DNA of 50,682 bases from Leptolyngbya sp. FACHB-8. Its GTDB lineage: Bacteria > Cyanobacteriota > Cyanobacteriia > Elainellales > Elainellaceae. Numbering within the stretch: the stretch's first letter is position 1; each line of letters starts with the position of its first letter. Shown here piece by piece: positions 23,348-50,291 of the stretch. Below the pieces are notes generated by a model. The model did not search any database and was not told the DNA's origin. It worked only from the letters and a program-made list of their open reading frames with translations. The stretch spans positions 1 through 50,682 of the forward strand of contig NZ_JACJOO010000017.1 in NCBI RefSeq assembly GCF_014695575.1, in the 5' to 3' direction. A program made the translations under genes and the position numbers.

Positions 23348-26300
23348 ATGAGTCAAACGCTCCATCATCAGGTCAAGCCATCAACGGATGTATCCCCACC
23401 CGTACAATCGGAGTCGCAACTGCAACGGCGTGCTTTTCCCCATGAAGTGGAGTCGCAAGCTGGTAAGGCGATCGCTCCTCCCACTCCCATCTCAGCCGAC
23501 TGGCAAGCCCAGCAAGGGAAAATAGCGCGTGCCCGATTTAACCCCGGCATGATTTCGCTCTATCCTGCTAACCCACTGAAGGATGAGAAGGATAAACCCG
23601 TTCAGAAGAAAGCAGATTCTACCGTTGAATCAGATGACCATCAAACAAAACCTATTCAGCGAAAGGAAGGAGCAACTTCTGAACCCGATAGAGACACGAA
23701 AGATACAATTCAACAAAAGACTGAATCAACAGCGCAGAATGAACTAGAGAAGGATAAACCATCGTCTAACAAGTTGGTACAGACGAAACTCAGTGTGGGG
23801 AAGGTGGGCGATCGCTACGAACAGGAAGCCGATCAGGTCGCCGCCAAAGTCATGACCATGCCCGACCCCGCTCACAATCGTATCCAGCGACAACCAGAGC
23901 AACCGGAATCTGATATCCAGCCTAAACCTTTAGCCATTACTCCCCTGGTGCAGAGACAAGCGTCCGAGGAGGAGGTGCAGACCAAAGCAACTCAGGAGCG
24001 ATCGCAACCGGACAACCATTTCGAGGCTCGGTTATCCAGCAGTATGGCTGGGGGTAACCCGTTGCCGGAAGATGTGCGATCGTTCATGGAACCGCGCTTG
24101 GGCGTTAGCTTAAAGCATGTAAAGGCTCATACAGGAGCCAACGCTGCTCAGATGAATAAAGCCGTGAGTGCCCAGGCATTCACTTATCGCAATCACATTT
24201 TCTATGCGGCTGGAAAAGCGCCAGCCAAGGATGAGTTAACGGCTCACGAATTAACCCACGTCATCCAACAAACTGGCGCAAAAGAACTGAACAAAGAAAA
24301 GGTGCGGCGATCGCCCGATGAAACGGAATCCCTTCAGCCAAAAGCGATCGAATCCCATTCCACAAAAGCCGAGGACAATAAACTCACTCCAGCAGAAGCT
24401 TCAATCCAACGTCGCGATATCAGTCTCGTTTCTCCTCGCATTCAACGCGATGTCCTTGGGGCAGTTGGCAATCTTCTGACAGGCAATTTTGAAGGAGCCA
24501 AGCGGGAATTTTTAGATTCCGTGGCAGGCTTTGCTTCTCGGATGCCAGGATATTCCCTTCTATCGGTGGTGCTGGGCAAAGATCCCATTAAAGATACGCC
24601 TGTCGAGCGCAATGCAACCAATTTAGTCAAAGGGGTGCTGGAGCTGGCACCGGGGGGCGATCGCCTATTCCAAAATCTCCAGGAATCGGGTGCATTGCAG
24701 AAAGCGTTTGATTGGTTTGGACAAGAAATCCAAAAGCTGAATCTGACATGGGATGTCATTAAAAGCCTATTCCGCCGGGCCATTGATGCGCTTTCCCCTG
24801 ATGACATTCTCAATCCAGGGGGACTGATAGAAGAACTCGCCAATATTTTCAGAGAACCCATTCAGCGAATCGTACGTTTTGCCCTTAACGTTGGTCAAAA
24901 GGTGATGGAATTCATCTTTGAAGGGGCTATGGCGCTGGCTGGGAAAGGCGGAGCCGAGCAGGTTATGGGCATTCTGAAGAAGGTCGGTGGCCTGTTCATG
25001 ACCATTATCAAAGACCCGGTGGGTTTCGTCGGGAATCTCGTGAAATCTGTCAAAGGTGGCTTTGAGCAGTTTTCCGCCAATATTACCAGGCACCTCAAAG
25101 CAGGTCTGATGGGTTGGCTATTCGGTGCCCTCTCAGGATCTGGATTGCAAATGCCCCCTGCACTTAACTCGAAAGGAATGCTATCGATTGCATTGCAGGT
25201 CGCTGGCGCAACTTATCAGAACCTGAGAAAGCAACTGGTGAAGCGCATGGGCGAGAAAAGGGTTTCCCAGGTAGAAAAATCATTCGCGTTACTCCGAAGT
25301 ATTGCAACGGGTGGACTGATCGCTGCCTGGCAGCAAATCTCCCAAAGCGTTGGCGATGTGAAAGAGATGGTAATTAGCGAAGTACGCAACTGGGTGATCA
25401 CGACTATCATCAAGCAGGCTGTCATCAAACTCGTATCGATGTTCAACCCAGCCGGTGCCATTGTGCAGGCGATCATCGCCGTTTACAACGCCGTCATGTT
25501 CTTCATTGAACGGTGGCAGCAAATTTTAGATCTTGCCAATGCCGTATTCAATTCCATTAGCAGCATCGTCGCAGGCAAAATTGGAGCCGCGATCAAATTC
25601 GTTGAGCAATCCATGGCAAAATCCCTCCCCGTCATTATCAGCTTCATGGCACGGCTACTTGGCTTAGGCGGTATCTCCAATAGAATCCGCAACATTATCA
25701 AGCGGATACAAAAGCCGCTCGACCGGGCAATGAATCGAATTGTTGACTTGGTAATGAAGTTTGCAAGGAAGCTTTTTGGCAAGAAACAGAAAAATGGTAA
25801 GAGTGACGATCGTACTGATTTACAAAAGAAGGAAGATTTGCAAAAAGCATTAAAGGAGGCAGAAAAGCAATTAAAAGATCCTAATGCAACTACTCGAAAG
25901 ATTAAGAAAGCGCTTCCGAAGATAAAAAGTAGTTTTAACTTGAAGAGAATTGAATTGATTAATAATGATAGAGGTGGCAACAATAATAACTTCTATATTC
26001 AGGCGGAAATTAATCCCATAGATAACACAGCAGTTGTACCATTAGTGACTAAAATGCAAGAAGTCAAAGTCGAGTTTGAAGTTCCTTTGAAGTTCAAAGA
26101 GCAATACCATCAATTCAAAGGTCAATTAAGACAACATGAACGCGGTATTAATGCGCTTAAAATGAGTGAGTGGTCTGCGAGAAGGGACCGATTTAAAAAA
26201 CTCAAACTAACGCGAACAAAGGGGAGAACCTCTGAAAGCGATGCCGACCAAAAATTGTTTCGAAGGATAATCGAAAATAGAATCATTAAACAACGAATTG

Positions 26301-26662
26301 AGAATTCTGTCAAAGCCGGAAAATCTTGTGAAGAAGCCCGCAAGGATGCCGAAGCTTTTGCTAAAAAATGGATGAAAAAACGTGTAGCTCTTCATGGTCC
26401 CGACCATATCGCTGGTGGAGGTAGATCGGTTGGTGATATAACCCCAGCCAAAGATATAGAGTCAGAATCTTTCTCTGAACTTAGGAAGCGAACCGGACTA
26501 AATGGCATGGGCAATTCTCGTATTAATTACTCTATTGGTCCAAGATGGGGGAAAAACGTTACTAAAATCGACAATGAAGTTAATAGTAGCAAATATACTC
26601 TCGAGATGAAGAAGGAGTTTCATATGGATGTAAGTATAGACGTGAAACAAGGTAACAAGTAA
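23348..26662 (+). CDS. CIS effector: DUF4157 domain with predicted Ntox15 nuclease tip
   Basis: This is a 1104-residue modular protein. Residues 1-220 are disordered with IQR/VQ motifs and a typical pre-domain segment (KLSVGKVGDRYEQEADQVAAKVM). Residues about 225-315 form the eCIS-core DUF4157 domain with a metalloprotease-like HELTH motif (H300-H304). Residues about 370-800 are long amphipathic and hydrophobic helices (FMTIIKDPVGFVGNLV, GLMGWLFGALSGSG) of possible translocation type. Residues about 805-870 are a charged coil. The end (about 985-1104) resembles Ntox15: an HxxD at H1016-D1019 within LHGPDHIAGGG, then SRINYSIGPRWG. Ntox15 toxins such as Agrobacterium Tde1 are nucleases. The last 850 bp are visibly AT-rich and lysine/asparagine-rich, suggesting a swapped toxin tip. 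GAGGA precedes the ATG. Confidence 0.88.
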   Translation: MSQTLHHQVKPSTDVSPPVQSESQLQRRAFPHEVESQAGKAIAPPTPISADWQAQQGKIARARFNPGMISLYPANPLKDEKDKPVQKKADSTVESDDHQTKPIQRKEGATSEPDRDTKDTIQQKTESTAQNELEKDKPSSNKLVQTKLSVGKVGDRYEQEADQVAAKVMTMPDPAHNRIQRQPEQPESDIQPKPLAITPLVQRQASEEEVQTKATQERSQPDNHFEARLSSSMAGGNPLPEDVRSFMEPRLGVSLKHVKAHTGANAAQMNKAVSAQAFTYRNHIFYAAGKAPAKDELTAHELTHVIQQTGAKELNKEKVRRSPDETESLQPKAIESHSTKAEDNKLTPAEASIQRRDISLVSPRIQRDVLGAVGNLLTGNFEGAKREFLDSVAGFASRMPGYSLLSVVLGKDPIKDTPVERNATNLVKGVLELAPGGDRLFQNLQESGALQKAFDWFGQEIQKLNLTWDVIKSLFRRAIDALSPDDILNPGGLIEELANIFREPIQRIVRFALNVGQKVMEFIFEGAMALAGKGGAEQVMGILKKVGGLFMTIIKDPVGFVGNLVKSVKGGFEQFSANITRHLKAGLMGWLFGALSGSGLQMPPALNSKGMLSIALQVAGATYQNLRKQLVKRMGEKRVSQVEKSFALLRSIATGGLIAAWQQISQSVGDVKEMVISEVRNWVITTIIKQAVIKLVSMFNPAGAIVQAIIAVYNAVMFFIERWQQILDLANAVFNSISSIVAGKIGAAIKFVEQSMAKSLPVIISFMARLLGLGGISNRIRNIIKRIQKPLDRAMNRIVDLVMKFARKLFGKKQKNGKSDDRTDLQKKEDLQKALKEAEKQLKDPNATTRKIKKALPKIKSSFNLKRIELINNDRGGNNNNFYIQAEINPIDNTAVVPLVTKMQEVKVEFEVPLKFKEQYHQFKGQLRQHERGINALKMSEWSARRDRFKKLKLTRTKGRTSESDADQKLFRRIIENRIIKQRIENSVKAGKSCEEARKDAEAFAKKWMKKRVALHGPDHIAGGGRSVGDITPAKDIESESFSELRKRTGLNGMGNSRINYSIGPRWGKNVTKIDNEVNSSKYTLEMKKEFHMDVSIDVKQGNK

Positions 26663-41083: not shown

Positions 41084-42532
41084 TTAGTTAAAAACTCGCT
41101 TAAGTGCGGGAATACGCGACAACACAAAGTAGTCCAGCAGAAGGACAACCACCAGCGAAAGGCCAACTAGGGGAAATGCTAGTCCCAGCACTGCAACGAT
41201 CGCCAATGGAACCCGCCAATTTTGTACATAGGGTGGCATAGCAGGAGCACCAATAAGCCCAGGTTCTTGAGGACGACGTTGCCACCACATCACGGCTCCC
41301 GTAATCGAGAGCAACATCACAATCAAAGCTGCGAGCAGCATCAGCAATTGGTTTGCCCATCCAAAATATTTTCCCATGTGAATCGCAGCTCCCATTTCGA
41401 CAGCTTTGGGAAGTAGACCATAATCTTTCCATCGGACGTCTGCCAGCACTTTGCCACTGTATTGATCAATGTGCATTGTCACTTCCTGAGTTGGGTCACC
41501 CGGGAAAGCCGAAACTGTGTATACCCCTGTTTCTCCTTCCGGTAACGTCACACTGAAGCCAGGAGGTGCACCCTTCTCTTGAGCTAAGGCAATAACAGAG
41601 TTGAGATCTACGGTCGTACCAGGGATAACGCCCGCTTGAGTAGGAGCAGAACCGGCCTCTCCGTGATTGCCGTGGTTACTGTGACCAGCATCTGTCGATT
41701 GCGGCATGGGTAGCTGTTCTACAGCCCAAGGCACTACTTGCCCTCGCTGGTTCAGTGAGCCGGTCAATACGGTTGATTGGGGCACGTCATCCCACATTTG
41801 AGCGGGAAACTTTCCATATACATTGGCAAAAGTTTCTCCCCAAAAGCCCGTCCAGGGTAAGCCCGTGAGGATCAGAAACCCGATCAAGAGAATGCCATAA
41901 AAGCCAGGAACAGCATGCAAATCTCTCCAGAATACTCGCTTGTTCTGGCTCCAAAGACGGGGAATTAAAGTGCCTAAAACTGAGAATTTGTTCCGTGGCA
42001 GCCACAAGTAAAGTCCTGAAATCAACAGCACTAGCCCCCAGCAAGCAGCCAACTCGACCAGATAATCCCCCAACTTGCCGATCAATAACTCACCGTGAAT
42101 CTTGCGGGTGATCGCCTGAAGGTTATTATCTTCATCTCGGCTGCCTAACACTTGGCCTGTATGAGGATCGACAAAGACCATCAAGTTGCGTTCATCTGTC
42201 GTCGTTACCAATACTTCACTGCTGCGATCGACTGCAATGTTAGGTGTAACTTGAGTGACAGTCGCACCAGGATATATCTTCTGAACGGAATGCACCTGTT
42301 CTGTATAGGACAGAGTGTTAGCTCCAGGTTGCACAAACATCAAGTTGTGATACATGGCAGTATCAAGCTGAGGCTTAAACAGGTAGATAATGCCTGTTAT
42401 TGCCAAAATGAGCATGAAGGGAATGACAAATAAACCAGCATAGAAGTGCCAGCGCCATACGGTTCGGTAAAACCGATGACCAGGAGATTGGACAGTTGAT
42501 GTTTGATTAAAAGCGGTTGCTGACTTACTCAT
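41084..42532 (-). CDS. PepSY-associated membrane protein
   Basis: A 482-residue inner-membrane protein with four membrane spans: FYAGLFVIPFMLILAITGIIYL near 35-55, LAACWGLVLLISGLYLWLP near 165, GFYGILLIGFLILTGLPW near 210, and a C-terminal pair (LLMLLAALIVMLLSITGAVMWW and VPLAIVAVLGLAFPLVGLSL). Two PepSY-like extracytoplasmic regions lie between them. A His-rich stretch (AGHSNHGNHGEAG, about 275-287) could bind metal. Relatives are iron-regulated or reductase-like proteins in siderophore or metal handling. AAGG precedes the ATG. It is divergent from the BlaI/M56 pair. Confidence 0.88.
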   Translation of the reverse strand: MSKSATAFNQTSTVQSPGHRFYRTVWRWHFYAGLFVIPFMLILAITGIIYLFKPQLDTAMYHNLMFVQPGANTLSYTEQVHSVQKIYPGATVTQVTPNIAVDRSSEVLVTTTDERNLMVFVDPHTGQVLGSRDEDNNLQAITRKIHGELLIGKLGDYLVELAACWGLVLLISGLYLWLPRNKFSVLGTLIPRLWSQNKRVFWRDLHAVPGFYGILLIGFLILTGLPWTGFWGETFANVYGKFPAQMWDDVPQSTVLTGSLNQRGQVVPWAVEQLPMPQSTDAGHSNHGNHGEAGSAPTQAGVIPGTTVDLNSVIALAQEKGAPPGFSVTLPEGETGVYTVSAFPGDPTQEVTMHIDQYSGKVLADVRWKDYGLLPKAVEMGAAIHMGKYFGWANQLLMLLAALIVMLLSITGAVMWWQRRPQEPGLIGAPAMPPYVQNWRVPLAIVAVLGLAFPLVGLSLVVVLLLDYFVLSRIPALKRVFN

Positions 42533-42590
42533 ATTGATTGCCTTTTGTCAAAAACAGAGGCGTGATGACTATGCCCCACACCTGAATACG

Positions 42591-42604
42591 TTGTCAAAAG
42601 ACAA
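42591..42604. promoter_or_regulatory. candidate operator between PepSY and BlaI genes
   Basis: TTGTCAAAAGACAA is a perfect 5-bp-arm inverted repeat with a 4-bp spacer, in the divergent promoter gap. An overlapping GACA-ACC-TGTC follows at 42600-42610, and CAACCT/AGGTTG arms span 42602-42634. BlaI/CopY repressors bind short dyads of this size, so it is a candidate site; the match to any known consensus is not established. Confidence 0.4.
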
Positions 42605-42758
42605 CCTGTCAAAGTTTTACAAACCTTTAGGTTGCAGAAACTCAAGCAAAGGCTGAAGGAGGTATTCGCATCGGTTCTAGGGACGGTTCATCCTACGTGG
42701 AGAAGAATAGATCCTGTCGGCAGTGTAAACTGATTTCAATTTTGGATTCCCATTACCC

Positions 42759-43178
42759 ATGTCGCCTCTGCCAGACCACCGCCCTAAGCAGCTCTCATTG
42801 GGTCCACTCGAAAGCGAGATCCTGGAAATCCTTTGGGAGTTTGGGTCAGCAACCGTTAAGGAAATTCACGATCGCATCCTGTCTGACCCCGATCGCGAAC
42901 TTGCCCAAGCCTCTGTTACAACAGTCTTAAATCGTCTAGCGCAGAAAGGTTGGGTCATGTGCCATAAACAGGAAAAAGCCTTCCAGTGGCAACCCCAAAT
43001 CTCTCAAGAAGAAGCTAGGGCTCTACAATCCCATGCCCAACTGAATCAGTTTCTCGCAGTGAGCAATCCTGACGTGGTTGCAGCATTTGCAGATAGCCTG
43101 GATACAGGTAGTTTAGAACAACTGGAGGCGATCGCGGATCGGATTCGAGCTCTGCGGCAAAACAGGGAGAAGCAATAA
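42759..43178 (+). CDS. petR: BlaI/CopY-family repressor, PetR-like
   Basis: A 139-residue winged-helix repressor: LGPLESEILEILWEFGSATVKEIHDRI, then QASVTTVLNRLAQKGWVMCHKQEKAFQWQP, the standard BlaI N-terminal DNA-binding domain, and a C-terminal dimerisation helix region. In Synechocystis a BlaI-type repressor (PetR) and an M56 membrane protease (PetP) encoded together control the copper-dependent plastocyanin/cytochrome c6 switch. The same pairing occurs here, with the stop and the next start sharing a base (TAATG at 43176-43180). The assignment rests on pairing and family, not on a target site; another BlaI system is possible. Confidence 0.72.
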   Translation: MSPLPDHRPKQLSLGPLESEILEILWEFGSATVKEIHDRILSDPDRELAQASVTTVLNRLAQKGWVMCHKQEKAFQWQPQISQEEARALQSHAQLNQFLAVSNPDVVAAFADSLDTGSLEQLEAIADRIRALRQNREKQ

Positions 43179-44014
43179 TGCATTTAAGCATCATGCTCAT
43201 AGCCGTGGCGATCGCAGGACTGACCCGGCTTTGTTGGTTCCGCTCTCCAGGTACGTGGGCTAACCGTTGGCAACGAACTTTAGGAGCGTTTCTTTTGCCG
43301 CCTCTTCTGTTGCTAACGACGAGTATGATTGTCCTCGGCATGGGGCATCATGGCACAATGCTGCAATATCCTGTTGGATGGATGGGATGCCACATTGCTT
43401 TAGGATTTTTTGTAATTGCAGGGGTATCGCTTGCCTTCCTGTTTGGACAACAATGGCAAGCGATTCAACAAGTCCGATCGCTACAATCAACCATCATCTT
43501 AGGTAGAACAGGGCGAGTCTTAGAAATTCACAATCTATTTGCAGCTCAAGTCGGTCTCTGGAAATCAGAGTTAGTCGTTAGCCGGGGCTTGCTGCAATCT
43601 TTGAGTGAGAACCAAATAGAAGCCGTTATGAGCCATGAAGAAGCGCACTGGTATTACCATGATACTTTCTTCTTCTTCTGGCTAAATTGGATTCGGCAAT
43701 TCACCTTTTGGCTCCCTAAAACGGAATTGCTTTGGCAAGAACTACTACTGTTACGAGAGCTTCGCGCAGATGGTTGGGCAGCCCAGCGGGTCGATCCTCT
43801 GACATTAGCAGAAACCTTGTTGTTTGTTGTGCGAGCTACTTCTACTCCTCATTATCACTGCGCTGCATTCTATGACACAACTCCTGTCACTCGATTAGAA
43901 GAACGAATTGACTTTCTTCTCAGCCAATCAGAAATTAATCAAAGCCAGTGTCAACTTTGGGTTTGGTTACTTCCGATCGCCTTGCCTATATTGACAGTAC
44001 CACTTCATGGATAA
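43178..44014 (+). CDS. petP: M56-family membrane metalloprotease, PetP-like
   Basis: A 278-residue membrane protein with several hydrophobic spans (LSIMLIAVAIAGLTRL; LGAFLLPPLLLLTTSMIVLG; IALGFFVIAGVSLAFLF; an end helix WVWLLPIALPIL). It has a zinc protease motif HEEAH in VMSHEEAHWYYHDTF near residue 150, and a further acidic LRELRADGWA that could supply the third ligand. BlaR1-type proteases cleave or inactivate their partner BlaI repressor. It lacks a penicillin-binding sensor, as does PetP. It is translationally coupled to the repressor gene. Confidence 0.75.
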   Translation: MHLSIMLIAVAIAGLTRLCWFRSPGTWANRWQRTLGAFLLPPLLLLTTSMIVLGMGHHGTMLQYPVGWMGCHIALGFFVIAGVSLAFLFGQQWQAIQQVRSLQSTIILGRTGRVLEIHNLFAAQVGLWKSELVVSRGLLQSLSENQIEAVMSHEEAHWYYHDTFFFFWLNWIRQFTFWLPKTELLWQELLLLRELRADGWAAQRVDPLTLAETLLFVVRATSTPHYHCAAFYDTTPVTRLEERIDFLLSQSEINQSQCQLWVWLLPIALPILTVPLHG

Positions 44015-45900: not shown

Positions 45901-47145
45901 ATGGGTGCAGCGACAACCGCCTCTAATGCCAATCTCAAAAATTACATGCTGGTGACGCTCGCCTATTGGGGCTTTACGCTCACCGATGGCGCACTGCGAA
46001 TGTTGGTGCTGCTGTATTTTAACGAGATTGGCTACACCCCTCTGCAAATTGCATTTCTGTTCCTCTTTTATGAGGCATTTGGTATTGTTACTAACTTTCT
46101 GGGAGGTTGGATTGGTTCCCAGATGGGTTTGAAGCTCACACTCTATGCAGGAATTGGGCTACAGGTATTTGCACTACTCATGCTGTCATTCCTGAACCGG
46201 GATTGGGTGCAGTGGATGGCGATCGCCTACGTTATGACAGCCCAGGCTTTTTCCGGTATTGCCAAAGACCTCACCAAGATGAGTTCTAAGAGTGCCATTC
46301 GTCTAGTGGTGCCTCAGGACGCACAATCCTCCCTGTTCAAGTGGGTAGCTGTCCTTACAGGCTCGAAGAATGCCCTCAAGGGCGTGGGCTTTTTCATGGG
46401 GGCAGCGCTACTGGCGACTGTGGGCTTTGTGAATTCGCTGTGGATGATGGCAGCGGGTCTCTTTTTAGTGATGCTGACAGGCTTTTTCCTGCCCGGAGGT
46501 ATGGGCAAGATTAAAGCGAAGGTCAAGTTCACCCAACTGTTTTCTAAAAGCCCTGAGATTAACGTCCTCTCGGCAGCACGATTCTTCCTATTTGGATCCA
46601 GAGATGTCTGGTTTGTGGTGGGTTTACCTGTATTTCTCCGCAGCATTTTAGGGTGGTCATTCTTTGAGGCGGGTGGATTTCTGGCGTGTTGGGTGATTGG
46701 TTATGGAGCCGTTCAATTTCTAGCCCCCACGTTGTTAAATCGGTTTAATGGTGGGCAACCGCCCCAGTCTAAAACAATTCAGTTCTGGACCTTTACCCTA
46801 ACGACCGTGCCAGCGGCGATCGCCGTTGCCCTTCAAGCTGGGCTTCCAGCCGCTCAGGTCATCATTGTAGGATTGGCTGTCTTTGGCATCGTATTTGCCT
46901 TCAACTCAGCCGTTCACTCCTACCTGGTATTAGCCTTTACGGACGATGACAAAGTGGCACTGAACGTCGGGTTCTATTACATGGCAAATTCCGGTGGACG
47001 ATTGGTTGGCACGGTGCTGTCGGGCTTGGTTTATCAACTTTCGGGGCTAGTGGGATGTTTAGGGGTGTCTACCCTATTTGTGTTGGCCGCAGGCATTATT
47101 TCCCTGAAGTTGCCCGATCCACAGCCGTCGAAGGCGATCGCCTGA
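45901..47145 (+). CDS. arsJ: ArsJ organoarsenical efflux transporter
   Basis: A 414-residue major-facilitator-type membrane protein with about 11-12 hydrophobic spans. It opens NYMLVTLAYWGFTLTDGALRMLVLLYFNEIGYTPLQIAFLFLFYEAFG, followed by KDLTKMSSKSAIRLV, the signature of ArsJ. Together with the GAPDH upstream it gives arsenate resistance by exporting 1-arseno-3-phosphoglycerate. AAGGAG precedes the ATG. Confidence 0.95.
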   Translation: MGAATTASNANLKNYMLVTLAYWGFTLTDGALRMLVLLYFNEIGYTPLQIAFLFLFYEAFGIVTNFLGGWIGSQMGLKLTLYAGIGLQVFALLMLSFLNRDWVQWMAIAYVMTAQAFSGIAKDLTKMSSKSAIRLVVPQDAQSSLFKWVAVLTGSKNALKGVGFFMGAALLATVGFVNSLWMMAAGLFLVMLTGFFLPGGMGKIKAKVKFTQLFSKSPEINVLSAARFFLFGSRDVWFVVGLPVFLRSILGWSFFEAGGFLACWVIGYGAVQFLAPTLLNRFNGGQPPQSKTIQFWTFTLTTVPAAIAVALQAGLPAAQVIIVGLAVFGIVFAFNSAVHSYLVLAFTDDDKVALNVGFYYMANSGGRLVGTVLSGLVYQLSGLVGCLGVSTLFVLAAGIISLKLPDPQPSKAIA

Positions 47146-47188
47146 AAATCCGGGGATGGCGATTAGCAACTTAATGCGTTTTGTGTTT

Positions 47189-47244
47189 GGGTGCATCCCA
47201 CTTACAAAAGCGGGTTTCCAAATCTGCAAAAGTGGGATGCACCC
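47189..47244. repeat. short hairpin repeat after arsJ
   Basis: GGGTGCATCCCACTT (47189-47203) and its exact complement AAGTGGGATGCACCC (47230-47244) enclose a 26-bp loop. It may be a small mobile repeat and may serve as the arsJ terminator. Confidence 0.75.
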
Positions 47245-47272
47245 CTGTGTTTCCATACAAAAGAGGTTTGCG

Positions 47273-47353
47273 ATGACTACCTTCAAAACCCATGTTGCCC
47301 TCCGAGTGACAGATGTTGAAAAAGAGGAAGCAGCACAAATTATTAAGAGTTAG
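47273..47353 (+). pseudogene. remnant of an ArsI/CadI-type glyoxalase-fold gene
   Basis: An ATG with AGAGG upstream begins MTTFKTHVALRVTDVEK, which matches the N-terminus of ArsI/CadI-family carbon-arsenic lyases (usual form: T-FKTHVAL-VTDVEKSVAFY). After the VEK the homology is lost and a stop comes after 26 codons. Such genes belong in arsenic loci, so this is a deletion remnant of a third gene in the GAPDH-arsJ operon. Confidence 0.7.
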
Positions 47354-47562
47354 GGCTTACGCACGTCTGCTGAGCGTTTTCCCCATTTCCGAACCAATTC
47401 AGCCGCAACTTCCACCATGGGAAGCTCGAAGGTTGCAATGTAATCGGTCCATTGCTGGGAGAACTCCTCCTGTTGCAATTGGAGTAAAAGGCCATCTGCA
47501 TCCGTTGAGGCAGCCAGAATTTCTAGTAGAGTACTCTGAAAGTGCGCTAAATCTTTTGTCAT
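47350..47562 (-). CDS. small partner protein of the MNIO operon
   Basis: A 70-residue helical protein from ATG 47562, whose first bases overlap the DUF692 stop (ATGA). The sequence includes MTKDLAHFQSTLLEILAAST, then QWTDYIATFELPMVEVAAELVRKWGKR. MNIO enzymes such as MbnB and BufB act with a partner protein that binds the precursor leader; this one is much smaller than known partners, so the role is inferred from position. Its last codons overlap the end of the ArsI remnant on the other strand. Confidence 0.7.
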   Translation of the reverse strand: MTKDLAHFQSTLLEILAASTDADGLLLQLQQEEFSQQWTDYIATFELPMVEVAAELVRKWGKRSADVRKP

Positions 47563-48446
47563 CGTCGCCTTTGGTGAACGATTTGCTGAATACGCTGGAA
47601 ATCCTGTCGCCACTGCTGTTGTTCCGTCTCAGTTGAAAGGGTATGCCCCAGACGCTCGAAAATTACGGCTTCAACATGGGAACAATGTTGGAGTGCGATC
47701 GCCAGTAACTCGAATACCATTTCTGGAACAGGCCCGTCGTGGGTATCCCGTCGAATCATAGAATCACTCGATGCACTTTTGCTCCAGGAACCGCCAGAAA
47801 TGTGGAGTTCCCGAACCCGATGGAGTGGGTAGCGCTTGAGTAATGCTTCTGGTGATTGCTGAAAGTTGTGAATTTGGCAATACAAATTGTGCAGATCCAG
47901 CACCAGAAAACCTTGAACATGGGCCAGCAGTTGATCGAGGAAAGTTCCTTGCTCTTCAACATCTCGCTGCCCAAATGCAAAAGCCAGGTTTTCTAAGCCA
48001 ATAGGAACCTTTGCCGCCGCTGCTAAACAATTGAGGCGATCGCACCCTAAACGCAATGTGTCGGCTGTCAGCGGCAGGGGCAGCGGGGCACTCTGGACAA
48101 AGTTGCCCGCCGCCATCCAACCAAAATGCTCAGAGATGTGACGATAGCGATACCGTTTGCACTCCTCCTGCAGGTTCTTCAGCCATTGATCTTGGGCTTC
48201 TTCCCATTGAGCTGAGAGTAAAGAATAGGTGACTCCATGTCCCAGCAGGCGATCGCGCTGGCTATAAAACTCCAGCAGATGGGTGACCCAATCCGGTAAA
48301 TCTGCTTCCCACCCCATATCAAAGCTCCACTCCAAAACCTGCACGGCTCCCGCTTCAAATAGTGGTTGTGAAGCCTGGAAAAAATCAGGTGTAGGCATCA
48401 GCGAGAGCCCTATCCACGGTGCCGGGCGCGATCGCTTGAACATCAA
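47559..48446 (-). CDS. DUF692 multinuclear iron oxidase (MNIO), RiPP-modifying type
   Basis: A 295-residue TIM-barrel protein of the DUF692/MbnB/TglH family. Recognisable iron-ligand positions in order: HGVTYSLLS, SEHFGW, GLENLAFAF, LDLHNLYC, ELHISGGSW, DTHDGPVPEM, IFERLGH. Known members oxidatively rearrange cysteine in precursor peptides (oxazolone-thioamide, thiooxazole and related groups), giving copper-binding or other products. Start and stop each overlap a neighbour by 4 bp (ATGA), so precursor, enzyme and partner are one coupled operon. Variant residues at the ENL and HISGGS motifs set it a little apart from the common forms. Confidence 0.9.
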   Translation of the reverse strand: MMFKRSRPAPWIGLSLMPTPDFFQASQPLFEAGAVQVLEWSFDMGWEADLPDWVTHLLEFYSQRDRLLGHGVTYSLLSAQWEEAQDQWLKNLQEECKRYRYRHISEHFGWMAAGNFVQSAPLPLPLTADTLRLGCDRLNCLAAAAKVPIGLENLAFAFGQRDVEEQGTFLDQLLAHVQGFLVLDLHNLYCQIHNFQQSPEALLKRYPLHRVRELHISGGSWSKSASSDSMIRRDTHDGPVPEMVFELLAIALQHCSHVEAVIFERLGHTLSTETEQQQWRQDFQRIQQIVHQRRR

Positions 48447-48667
48447 CCCATACCACAGGCAATACAGGGAGCATTATCCTTCTGCTGAGAAGATATGGGT
48501 GTTACAGGCTGATCAGGCGTTGCATCACTCACTTGAGAAGTCGTTGCCTCTCCTCTATTAACTGACTGCTTAAAGTTCACCATCAAATCGGCAGACTGTA
48601 CCTGTCCGCCAATACCCGACACCAGAGTGCTACCAATACCAAGCAGGGCGATCGCAATGTGTTTCAT
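48443..48667 (-). CDS. secreted precursor-like peptide of the MNIO operon
   Basis: A 74-residue peptide. Residues 1-25 are a signal peptide (MKHIAIALLGIGSTLVSG, cleavage after QSA). A polar Ser/Thr/Gln spacer follows, then the only two cysteines in the C-terminal NAPCIACGMG. AGGAAG lies before the ATG. The MNIO gene begins in its stop codon. A signal peptide plus a short cysteine-containing end is the plan of bufferin-type MNIO substrates, but this sequence is not the DUF2282 family, so it may be a new substrate class. Confidence 0.82.
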   Translation of the reverse strand: MKHIAIALLGIGSTLVSGIGGQVQSADLMVNFKQSVNRGEATTSQVSDATPDQPVTPISSQQKDNAPCIACGMG

Positions 48668-48843
48668 ATTGCTTCCTGAAGAATAGTGAACGTTGAATTA
48701 AATCTATCAGGTTGCTTCCTGGCTATCCGATATGGTTTCAAAAGTTGAAACCGAAGTTTGATAGCACTTTTCCTGGTGTGGGGTTCTAATAAAAGGTGCA
48801 AGATATGAGCAGCACTCTATGGCTATAGGGTGGCAACCTATAG

Positions 48844-49659
48844 TCAGGTAATCCCATATTTTTCTAATATGGGAGAAATCATAGCTTGCAGAAACTGCTT
48901 CATATAGATACTAATTTCTTGGGGAAAGGCCTGAAATTCTTCGCTTGTACTCGGCGCAAAACGGACACCGTGTTGGTTGGCTAAGGTTTGCGCCGCTATC
49001 TGACACTGATTGAGATATGCCCGTGCCAAACTGCGTCCAGGACACCAAACTTCGTACTTGCCGGGAAGTGTTTTCCCTGAGTCATCCTTACGATAGCAAT
49101 CATGAAGATCTACGAAGGCTAAAGTTTTAGGTTGTGACACTTTTTTGTTGGTTAAAACCCCATCAAGCAGATCAGCACCATAGATACGCATTAGGTCACG
49201 AAATCCTTCACCGCCTGCCACACGGAAAATAGCATCCAAAATCGCGGCATCTTCCGGTTTAGCATTCAGGTACTCGTTGAGTAGAGCCTCAGTACTTCCC
49301 AACATCGCCAGAACGAAGTAAGGCGCAGTGGTGTGAACATAATGATGAGTAACTCTATCTGCGAATGAACAGGTTGCATATTTGCCGACAATAAAGCCCG
49401 TGAGTGATGTTAGGGTTTCATCGATATAACGCTCCTGTTCCTCAGTAAATGAAGACTCTACAGCACAGTTTTTAGCACCGCCCAGGAATGCGTAAGCCTT
49501 GACACCATACTTACGAACATACATTGAAGTAACATCTGCTCGTTCGTAACCTCCTCGTTCAACAGCATTTTTATTAAATTTCTGCCGAATATCGTGAAAC
49601 AGCGTATATGTATACTGTAGCCGCGCATGAATCGCGTCTGGGGGGAGTGCGTTTTTCAT
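48844..49659 (-). CDS. hypothetical protein, 271 residues
   Basis: A soluble, mixed helical protein with no recognised domain. Landmarks are HDIRQKFNKNAVERGGYERADVTSMYVRKYG, GAKNCAVESSFTEEQERYIDETLTSL, ILDAIFRVAGGEGFRDLMRIYGADLLDGV, and FVDLHDCYRKDDSGKTLPGKYEVWCPGRS. Six cysteines are scattered through it without a repeating motif. It lacks a signal peptide and membrane segments, and stands alone as a single gene. Confidence 0.75.
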   Translation of the reverse strand: MKNALPPDAIHARLQYTYTLFHDIRQKFNKNAVERGGYERADVTSMYVRKYGVKAYAFLGGAKNCAVESSFTEEQERYIDETLTSLTGFIVGKYATCSFADRVTHHYVHTTAPYFVLAMLGSTEALLNEYLNAKPEDAAILDAIFRVAGGEGFRDLMRIYGADLLDGVLTNKKVSQPKTLAFVDLHDCYRKDDSGKTLPGKYEVWCPGRSLARAYLNQCQIAAQTLANQHGVRFAPSTSEEFQAFPQEISIYMKQFLQAMISPILEKYGIT

Positions 49660-50291
49660 ATCACTTAAGTTTTACCCGTCTGGCATTGTTTGAATTCAGC
49701 CTCTTTCAGGACTACAGTAAGAACTGTTTATCCTCCTACAGTGGTAACAAAAGAGATATCGAAGGACAAGTATCAGTTGGCCATGTTTCGAACGCGTGAA
49801 TGGAACGTGGTGAAAGGGGTACTTCGTGCCTTTTTCACCACATCCCATCCACACGCTTAGAACTCTACCCCAACGGTACCTAAGGAGATTTCTGAGAAAC
49901 AATATCCCCATTATTTGGAAAAAAGGCGCGGCTTCGCCGCGCCTTTTTTCCAAATAATGGGGAAGTTCTTATCTGGAAATCTCCTAAGTCGAGCGTTCGA
50001 ACGTGGGTTAGCGAGGCGATCGCCAAAATGCGGGCAAATGGAGATGAGGCAGCAGAAGGTGAGACAGCATCTTGATTAGTATAAATATTTACACTATTAC
50101 CCTTATCAGAACGAGCCTACTTATAGGATTCAGAATGAATGGCGTTGCAGGACTGTTAAGGAGAAGGCTATCCAGACTAAAAACCTTATTTTTTCTCTCT
50201 TGAGAAGTAGAAGAAGGTGTATCCGAAAGCAGAGTGATACTCAGTATTTCAACTGATTTGATGGAACTAATTCACCTCCTCGTGCTTCCCT
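49660..50291. other. gene-free stretch with a MITE
   Basis: This 632-bp stretch contains the 107-bp element at 49881-49987 and no complete gene. A short frame right after the element (VRTWVSEAIAKMRANGDEAA, stop near 50075) looks protein-like and may be the tail of a gene broken by the element. Confidence 0.5.
49881..49987. repeat. 107-bp hairpin MITE, core type B, inverted (copy 3)
   Basis: It is essentially the reverse complement of the copy at 2368-2474, with the same 27-bp stem and TTC/GAA loop and the same length. The opposite orientation shows the element inserts either way round. Confidence 0.85.

Follow-up and report, generated by a model that had tools for sequence, protein, structure and literature searches.

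A probable minimal chryseobasin-type RiPP operon with a separately encoded helper domain in Leptolyngbya sp. FACHB-8

The ChrH subfamily of MNIO enzymes, the CPxCGxG tail of its substrates and its membership in Cyanobacteria were described in a 2025 preprint (PMC12636315), and gene sets of the ChrH type appeared in print between 2023 and 2025 (PMC10214503, PMC12636315). In Cyanobacteriota the C-terminal domain of ChrH is described as a separate polypeptide (PMC12636315). The same preprint reports that MelHc co-purifies with MelH, that MelA1 is modified by MelH together with MelHc and is left unmodified by MelH alone, and that the product on the tail, formed with a mass change of -4 Da, is a macrocycle with a hydantoin for which the split helper is needed. 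It also describes DybH as tolerating changes within the ring, and gives the biological role of the ChrH-subfamily backbone rearrangement as unknown. Bufferins and oxazolins, which are other MNIO products, are described as binding copper.

The window analysed here is the whole of a 50,682-base contig from a 6.9 Mb source genome (G000). The features of the locus are as follows:

48667 down to 47350, minus strand: three-gene operon in the order peptide, DUF692/MNIO enzyme and 70-aa helical protein, with overlapping genes
48443..48667, minus strand: precursor peptide of 74 aa, ChrA/MelA-like, with predicted signal peptide, linker and C-terminal tag CIACGMG
47559..48446, minus strand: MNIO enzyme of 294/295 aa, ChrH/MelH-like, barrel only, with a likely ATG start at 48443
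47350..47562, minus strand: 70-aa protein, apparently a MelHc-like split-off C-terminal helical domain of the enzyme
48734..48752, minus strand: 19-bp palindrome GGTTTCAACTTTTGAAACC upstream of the precursor, putative operator of the operon

An earlier note on this DNA had claimed three genes (a 74-aa peptide, a DUF692 enzyme and a 70-aa helical protein), and these are real. The ATGA overlap which it placed at both junctions is found between enzyme and helper, with 4 nt shared, but the peptide/enzyme junction is TGATG instead; there the enzyme gene shares 1 nt with the stop codon of the peptide if it begins at the likely ATG, and 4 nt if it begins at an in-frame TTG. An Rfam scan of 46900-49000 gave nothing at the gathering score, and a promoter and terminator scan gave a result no better than shuffles. 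We consider it highly probable that the locus is a minimal three-gene chryseobasin-type RiPP operon of the ChrH/MelH subfamily, in the MelH/MelHc form. The note had suggested a new RiPP; this suggestion, and with it a new RiPP class, was rejected, since the CPxCGxG/ChrH subfamily including Cyanobacteria is already in print (PMC10214503, PMC12636315). By these published accounts the chemistry is not new, the same kind of gene set having been described in 2023-2025.

The enzyme is the sole match in the window's genome at E <= 0.001. It matched Pfam PF05114 (E 4.3e-34), and its best NCBIfam model was MNIO_ChrH (NF050165; 371.5 bits, E 4.4e-111, profile 2-284 of 363), compared with 106 bits for BufB, 77 for HvfB and 57 for ApyH. 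This score lies under the NF050165 equivalog cutoff of 600, and so do the scores of the four further members of the family that were checked, among them fused enzymes. A tree of 26 MNIO proteins set 23 ChrH-type rows apart from three other cyanobacterial MNIOs with support of 100/100; 11 of the 23 inner branches were open, among them the place of the window enzyme inside the ChrH group, and its nearest rows by path were L018, G408, L019 and G197. Nine iron ligands have been named in TglH (PMC10880893). E152, D184, N187, H215, D234, H236 and E264 align with seven of these nine, the counterparts of H70 and H107 are the corresponding His residues of the DUF692 structure 3bww, and the nine positions are invariant in 23/23 ChrH-type rows. 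On these comparisons, we place the enzyme in the ChrH (chryseobasin) MNIO subfamily.

The only two cysteines of the precursor sit in NAPCIACGMG, and its N-terminus appears signal-like, the signal peptide and cleavage site being judged by eye. Because no lipobox Cys is present outside the tail, we do not regard the peptide as lipidated (a DAG-RiPP). Its C-terminus matched NCBIfam NF050125 (ChrA_rel_RiPP) weakly (E 0.015, 16 bits, cutoff 40). Pfam returned nothing for the peptide at E <= 1, which agrees with the note's view that it is not of the DUF2282 bufferin type. An ORF ending in CxxCGxG lies upstream of the enzyme in 24 of 26 loci, the two others being L101 and L111. L101 (genome G480) has a ChrH-group enzyme and a split helper, yet its upstream frame ends SETGACGMG, with the first tag Cys missing; L111 is an enzyme fragment with an internal stop, and no precursor was found there. 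The earlier note's proposals of an MNIO-modified RiPP operon and of the Cys tail as the likely target both stand, and tail and enzyme are closely paired in these 24 loci.

The pairing of tail and enzyme is beyond chance, on the basis of a DNA pattern search for CxxCGMG followed by TRR. This gave 21 matches in 19 of 386 phylum genomes, with matches of the reversed-pattern control in 4 genomes. Two of the 21 (in G000 and G197) end ORFs with a signal-like start, and both stand beside a ChrH-type enzyme; peptides without the enzyme, which the earlier note had proposed to look for, were therefore not seen among these genomes. The remaining 19 matches had no stop (TGG) or lay in short frames; the nearest exceptions were frames of 70 aa (G229) and 38 aa (G004), neither of which shows a signal peptide. 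For CxxCG(M or CTG-Leu)G followed by TRR, the tail is the single match in the window's genome, and the pattern adjoins the enzyme in 17 of 19 ChrH-bearing genomes searched. G425 contained two extra matches, one without a stop and one closing a ~70-aa frame, and the reversed control matched twice (G428, G431). G429 and G435 gave no match; the tails of their precursors read CPACGLG and CPGCGLG, in which Leu is presumably not encoded by CTG.

Across nine precursors from eight cyanobacterial loci, the Cys, Cys, Gly and Gly of the tail are the sole invariant columns and the Pro varies, and the five closest of the nine share xQSx(D/N)(L/V/F)x(V/M)xF past the signal region. Conservation of the CIACGMG end among homologues thus holds for these four residues but not for the Ile. 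The window tail fits CxxCGxG, with Ile in place of the Pro of CPxCGxG. Position 2 is mostly Pro, and is Ile in the window, Leu in G408 (CLACGMG), Arg in L021 (CRACGMG), Thr in one L025 peptide and Glu in one L022 peptide. Published tails are CPxCGxG, and in the parts of the ChrH-subfamily literature covered we found no substrate with a residue other than Pro at position 2. Ile- or Leu-for-Pro tails might give a product other than that of ChrH or MelH, for example one unclosed or differently linked. Both ChrH members in the window's order (2/36 genomes) carry a bulky hydrophobic residue (window Ile, G408 Leu) where most others have Pro, and the place of the enzyme inside the ChrH group is open in the tree. 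However, the ligand positions and the tag Cys, Cys, Gly and Gly are kept, position 2 varies in other loci (CRACGMG, CEGCGRG, CTGCGLG), and DybH is reported to have tolerated in-ring changes. We regard new MNIO chemistry of this kind as very improbable.

Some related loci encode precursors of other kinds. In an Acaryochloris locus (L020, 1679-2005), an extra ORF terminates in GGGCPACGMG, contains a second CxxC and has a leader that by eye resembles the double-glycine type (EKLSGG); it would be a ChrH-type tag on a bacteriocin-like leader. Two planctomycete precursors (L023 2664-3491, L024 7217-7984) are whole proteins of ~255-275 aa ending CPGCGMG.

The MNIO_ChrH model is 363 long, and the match of the window enzyme stops at 284. 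A short ORF after the enzyme in homologous loci carries LAxFQxxLLExL...Y...FDPxMxEVAAxLVKKWG (13-row alignment), and in other loci sequence of the LAxFQxxLLExL type forms the enzyme's own C-terminus. Over 26 loci, this helper domain was split in 16, fused in 8 and unreadable in 2 (L033, at a contig end; L111, a fragment). A profile of 13 split proteins matched the C-termini of 4 of 9 full-length enzymes (L025 2.2e-15, L029 6.1e-15, L030 2.2e-10, L031 1e-8; E-values computed for a 9-protein set), and the five without a match in this first pass were all Bacteroidota. A second profile, with G408 and the tails of L025, L029, L030 and L031 added and filters off, scored the Bacteroidota tails of L104 (5.6e-6) and of L100, L026 and L102 (5e-4 to 1.2e-3); the fifth Bacteroidota enzyme, L101, has a split helper gene. 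Aligning 14 split helpers and 4 fused tails (18 rows) with four Bacteroidota tails in hhalign gave 92.9% probability and E 3.6e-7.

The AlphaFold model of the 70-aa protein has four helices (mean pLDDT 86.7), and that of the fused L025 enzyme has a barrel, a low-confidence linker (302-322) and four helices (327-386), with TglH (8hci, E 8e-13) as its best Foldseek match. For the 70-aa model, the best PDB match in Foldseek was no better than E 1.4 and VIA-align gave middling Z-scores (best 5.4, Os1348 6lk7); because these matches were poor, we claim no known fold for the helper. The partner proteins of bufferin and oxazolin systems belong to DUF2063. Pfam gave 11 weak matches for 13 helper proteins, none convincing and none to DUF2282 or DUF2063, and nothing at E <= 1 for the window's 70-aa protein; the peptide likewise matched neither family. 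Judged by sequence, the 70-aa protein is the C-terminal helical domain of ChrH encoded as its own gene. The partner, held in the earlier note to be far smaller than known MNIO partners, is thus not an unfamiliar one, and an unrelated small partner was rejected because the helper profile and hhalign tie the 70-aa protein to this domain.

Several observations count against the ChrH/MelH reading. The enzyme scores 371 against a cutoff of 600, the peptide matches ChrA models weakly, the tail has Ile for Pro, five Bacteroidota enzymes were missed by the first helper profile, and L101 and L111 lack the upstream tag ORF.

ChrH-type enzymes are sparse, being present in 2/386 phylum, 2/36 order and 7/388 class genomes (two of them partial) and in 5/247 genomes of the phylum of L026; the draws overlap. 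A further 12 of the 386 phylum genomes gave weak matches only (E 1e-14 to 1e-11), to other MNIOs. A further 17 loci came from a contig collection; all of them are from MAGs, where binning errors are possible, and they were assigned to Cyanobacteria, Omnitrophota, Verrucomicrobiota, Planctomycetota, Obscuribacter, Saprospiraceae and Acidimicrobiales/Acidimicrobiia. Among 72,556 plasmid records, one carried a relative, a Hymenobacter plasmid. Members from Acidimicrobiales, Omnitrophota and Verrucomicrobiota were not found in the parts of the literature covered. The Acidimicrobiales/Acidimicrobiia (Actinomycetota) MAG operons (L027-L031, L034) comprise three with split and three with fused helpers.

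Relative to the start of the precursor, copies of the palindrome GGTTTCAACTTTTGAAACC lie at -81 to -98. It was defined from the window, L018 and L019, and other loci were compared afterwards. L020, L032 and L033 have copies with 3, 3 and 4 mismatches of 19, and for each 0/300 Markov sequences were as good. The L110 copy has 3 mismatches and lies at -69 from the first start codon or -81 from the ATG. In G408 nothing closer than a 5-mismatch copy at -156 was present, with 5/300 Markov sequences as good, and the upstream region of G197 has no copy. With up to 4 mismatches, the palindrome is present in 7 of 9 photosynthetic cyanobacterial operons with readable upstream sequence; in twelve more loci, Obscuribacter among them, and at two additional precursors the best match had 6 or more mismatches. 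The comparison left out L028, L100, L101 and L104.

An exact 17-mer of the palindrome has one copy in the window's genome and was found in 5 of 386 phylum genomes, compared with 3 for the reversed control; we take the four other genomes (~2 Mb, outside the window's class) as chance matches. Allowing one mismatch in 7 genomes, we saw no clear excess over the reversed control (2 versus 8 in G000; none in 2/7), and for this reason no palindrome regulon was found. In L020 the palindrome is part of a longer 14-bp stem, and it may have a hairpin role. Its position and recurrence suggest a putative operator of the operon. A literature search found no report of it in the sources covered. The 19-bp palindrome is new in this analysis, as is the BlaI/M48 pair by the operon in the window and two Acaryochloris loci.

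This pair, a BlaI/CopY-type repressor and an M48 protease, lies at 42759-44014, 3.3 kb from the operon; in two Acaryochloris loci (L032 6171-7452, L110 8533-9806) it is found immediately upstream of the operon. The assignment of L110 to Acaryochloris is drawn from the genus label g215, which its genome G808 shares with the genomes of L020 and L032. BlaI (PF03965) has one copy each in G000, G408, G197 and G433 and two in G421 (one with an internal stop); the search gave none in G420 and G434. For a gene so near single-copy, its proximity to the operon in two lineages seems more than chance. PetR/PetP of Synechocystis is described as a regulator of the BlaI type together with a protease proposed to depend on copper (PMC7896320), and family and gene order suggest that the pair here is PetRP-like. 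Its proximity to a ChrH-type operon was not found in print in the parts of the literature covered. A second, conserved site, GTCAAAAGAC..CTGTCA, is present upstream of petR-like genes in 4 of 6 regions compared (window 42459-42758, L032, L078, L081), and may be a BlaI-type operator.

These neighbours bear on the alternative, raised in the earlier note, of a metal- or metalloid-handling peptide (a copper buffer or an arsenic binder) co-regulated with neighbouring resistance genes. An ArsR-type regulator, an ArsJ-associated GAPDH and ArsJ lie downstream of the operon, the BlaI/M48 pair resembles the copper-sensing PetR/PetP, and copper binding is described for bufferins and oxazolins. However, homologues of ArsJ, GAPDH, ArsR and PepSY were present in 0/25 other loci (tblastn E <= 1e-5; flanks of a few hundred bases to ~10 kb, some of them short), as was true of the upstream 271-aa protein; an arsenic link is thus unsupported, and the recurring part of the neighbourhood is the BlaI/M48 pair, in the two Acaryochloris loci only. 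In addition, the BlaI gene is on other contigs than the operon in G408, G197 and G421, and the petR-like upstream site TGTCAAAAGAC..CTGTCA is unlike the operon palindrome. We consider a metal-handling peptide unlikely. Among the seven neighbours between 41084 and 49659, ChrI (DUF1772), ChrE and ChrP are absent.

Elsewhere on the contig, ORFs at 8719-32144 resemble a contractile injection system (ATPase, sheath, tube, spike and baseplate, from ORF reading only), with a large HELTHV-containing protein at 23348-26662. A MEKRRGxAAPFFQIMG stretch in ORFs at ~2400 and 49700-49960, at both contig ends and on both strands, is by its sequence an interspersed repeat.

Returning to the chryseobasin-type reading, the earlier note's view that the product is not predictable was too cautious, as characterised relatives make a macrocycle and hydantoin at the tail. 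By analogy with these published relatives, the peptide would be made with an N-terminal Sec-type signal, and in the cytoplasm the iron enzyme and the separately encoded helical domain would, as a complex, recognise the C-terminal CxxCGxG tag. Using O2, the enzyme would perform a four-electron oxidation in which the sulfur of the first Cys is joined to the beta-carbon of what was the second Cys, and a hydantoin is formed with the residues after it. The tail is very probably tied into a ring by the iron enzyme and helper. The expected mass change would be -4 Da for an unmethylated product, as with MelH and DybH; a change of +10 Da, from S-methylation as with ChrH, is less likely. The modified peptide would then be exported and cut near VQS|ADL, giving a free, unlipidated periplasmic or extracellular peptide.

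It is conceivable, although we think it unlikely, that ChrH-type cyanobacterial peptides form a dedicated, separately regulated system of secreted peptides in which the palindrome controls the operon. The operon lies by a PetR/PetP-like copper switch in the window and in Acaryochloris, and on this reading the family would consist of copper- or redox-responsive extracellular peptides, here with a ring variant that lacks proline. Whatever its regulation, the operon is a minimal three-gene form: its precursor is short, its tail carries a natural Ile in place of Pro, and its putative operator appears to be its own. Together these offer a handle on the switch of the peptide and on the working of the split helper.

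Among known systems, bufferins and oxazolins (BufABC, HvfABC) share with this locus an MNIO enzyme and an exported Cys peptide, but their precursors come from other families, their heterocycles bind copper and their partner protein is larger. The dyb cluster of Dyadobacter (DybA, DybH; PMC12636315) shares the tail and the enzyme subfamily, and its macrocycle is reported as unmethylated; DybA is a lipoprotein with a third Cys, whereas the window peptide has no lipobox. The chr cluster of Chryseobacterium (ChrA, ChrH, ChrI; PMC10214503) shares the short signal-peptide precursor, the C-terminal CxxCGMG and the MNIO subfamily, but its ChrH has a fused helical domain and S-methylates, and it also includes ChrI, ChrE and ChrP, which are not among the scanned window neighbours. 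The mel cluster of a Melainabacterium (MelA1, MelH, MelHc; PMC12636315) shares the signal peptide, the CxxCGMG end, the MNIO barrel and the separate helper; MelA1 is described as a 34 kDa protein, whereas the window precursor has 74 aa and Ile rather than Pro in its tail.
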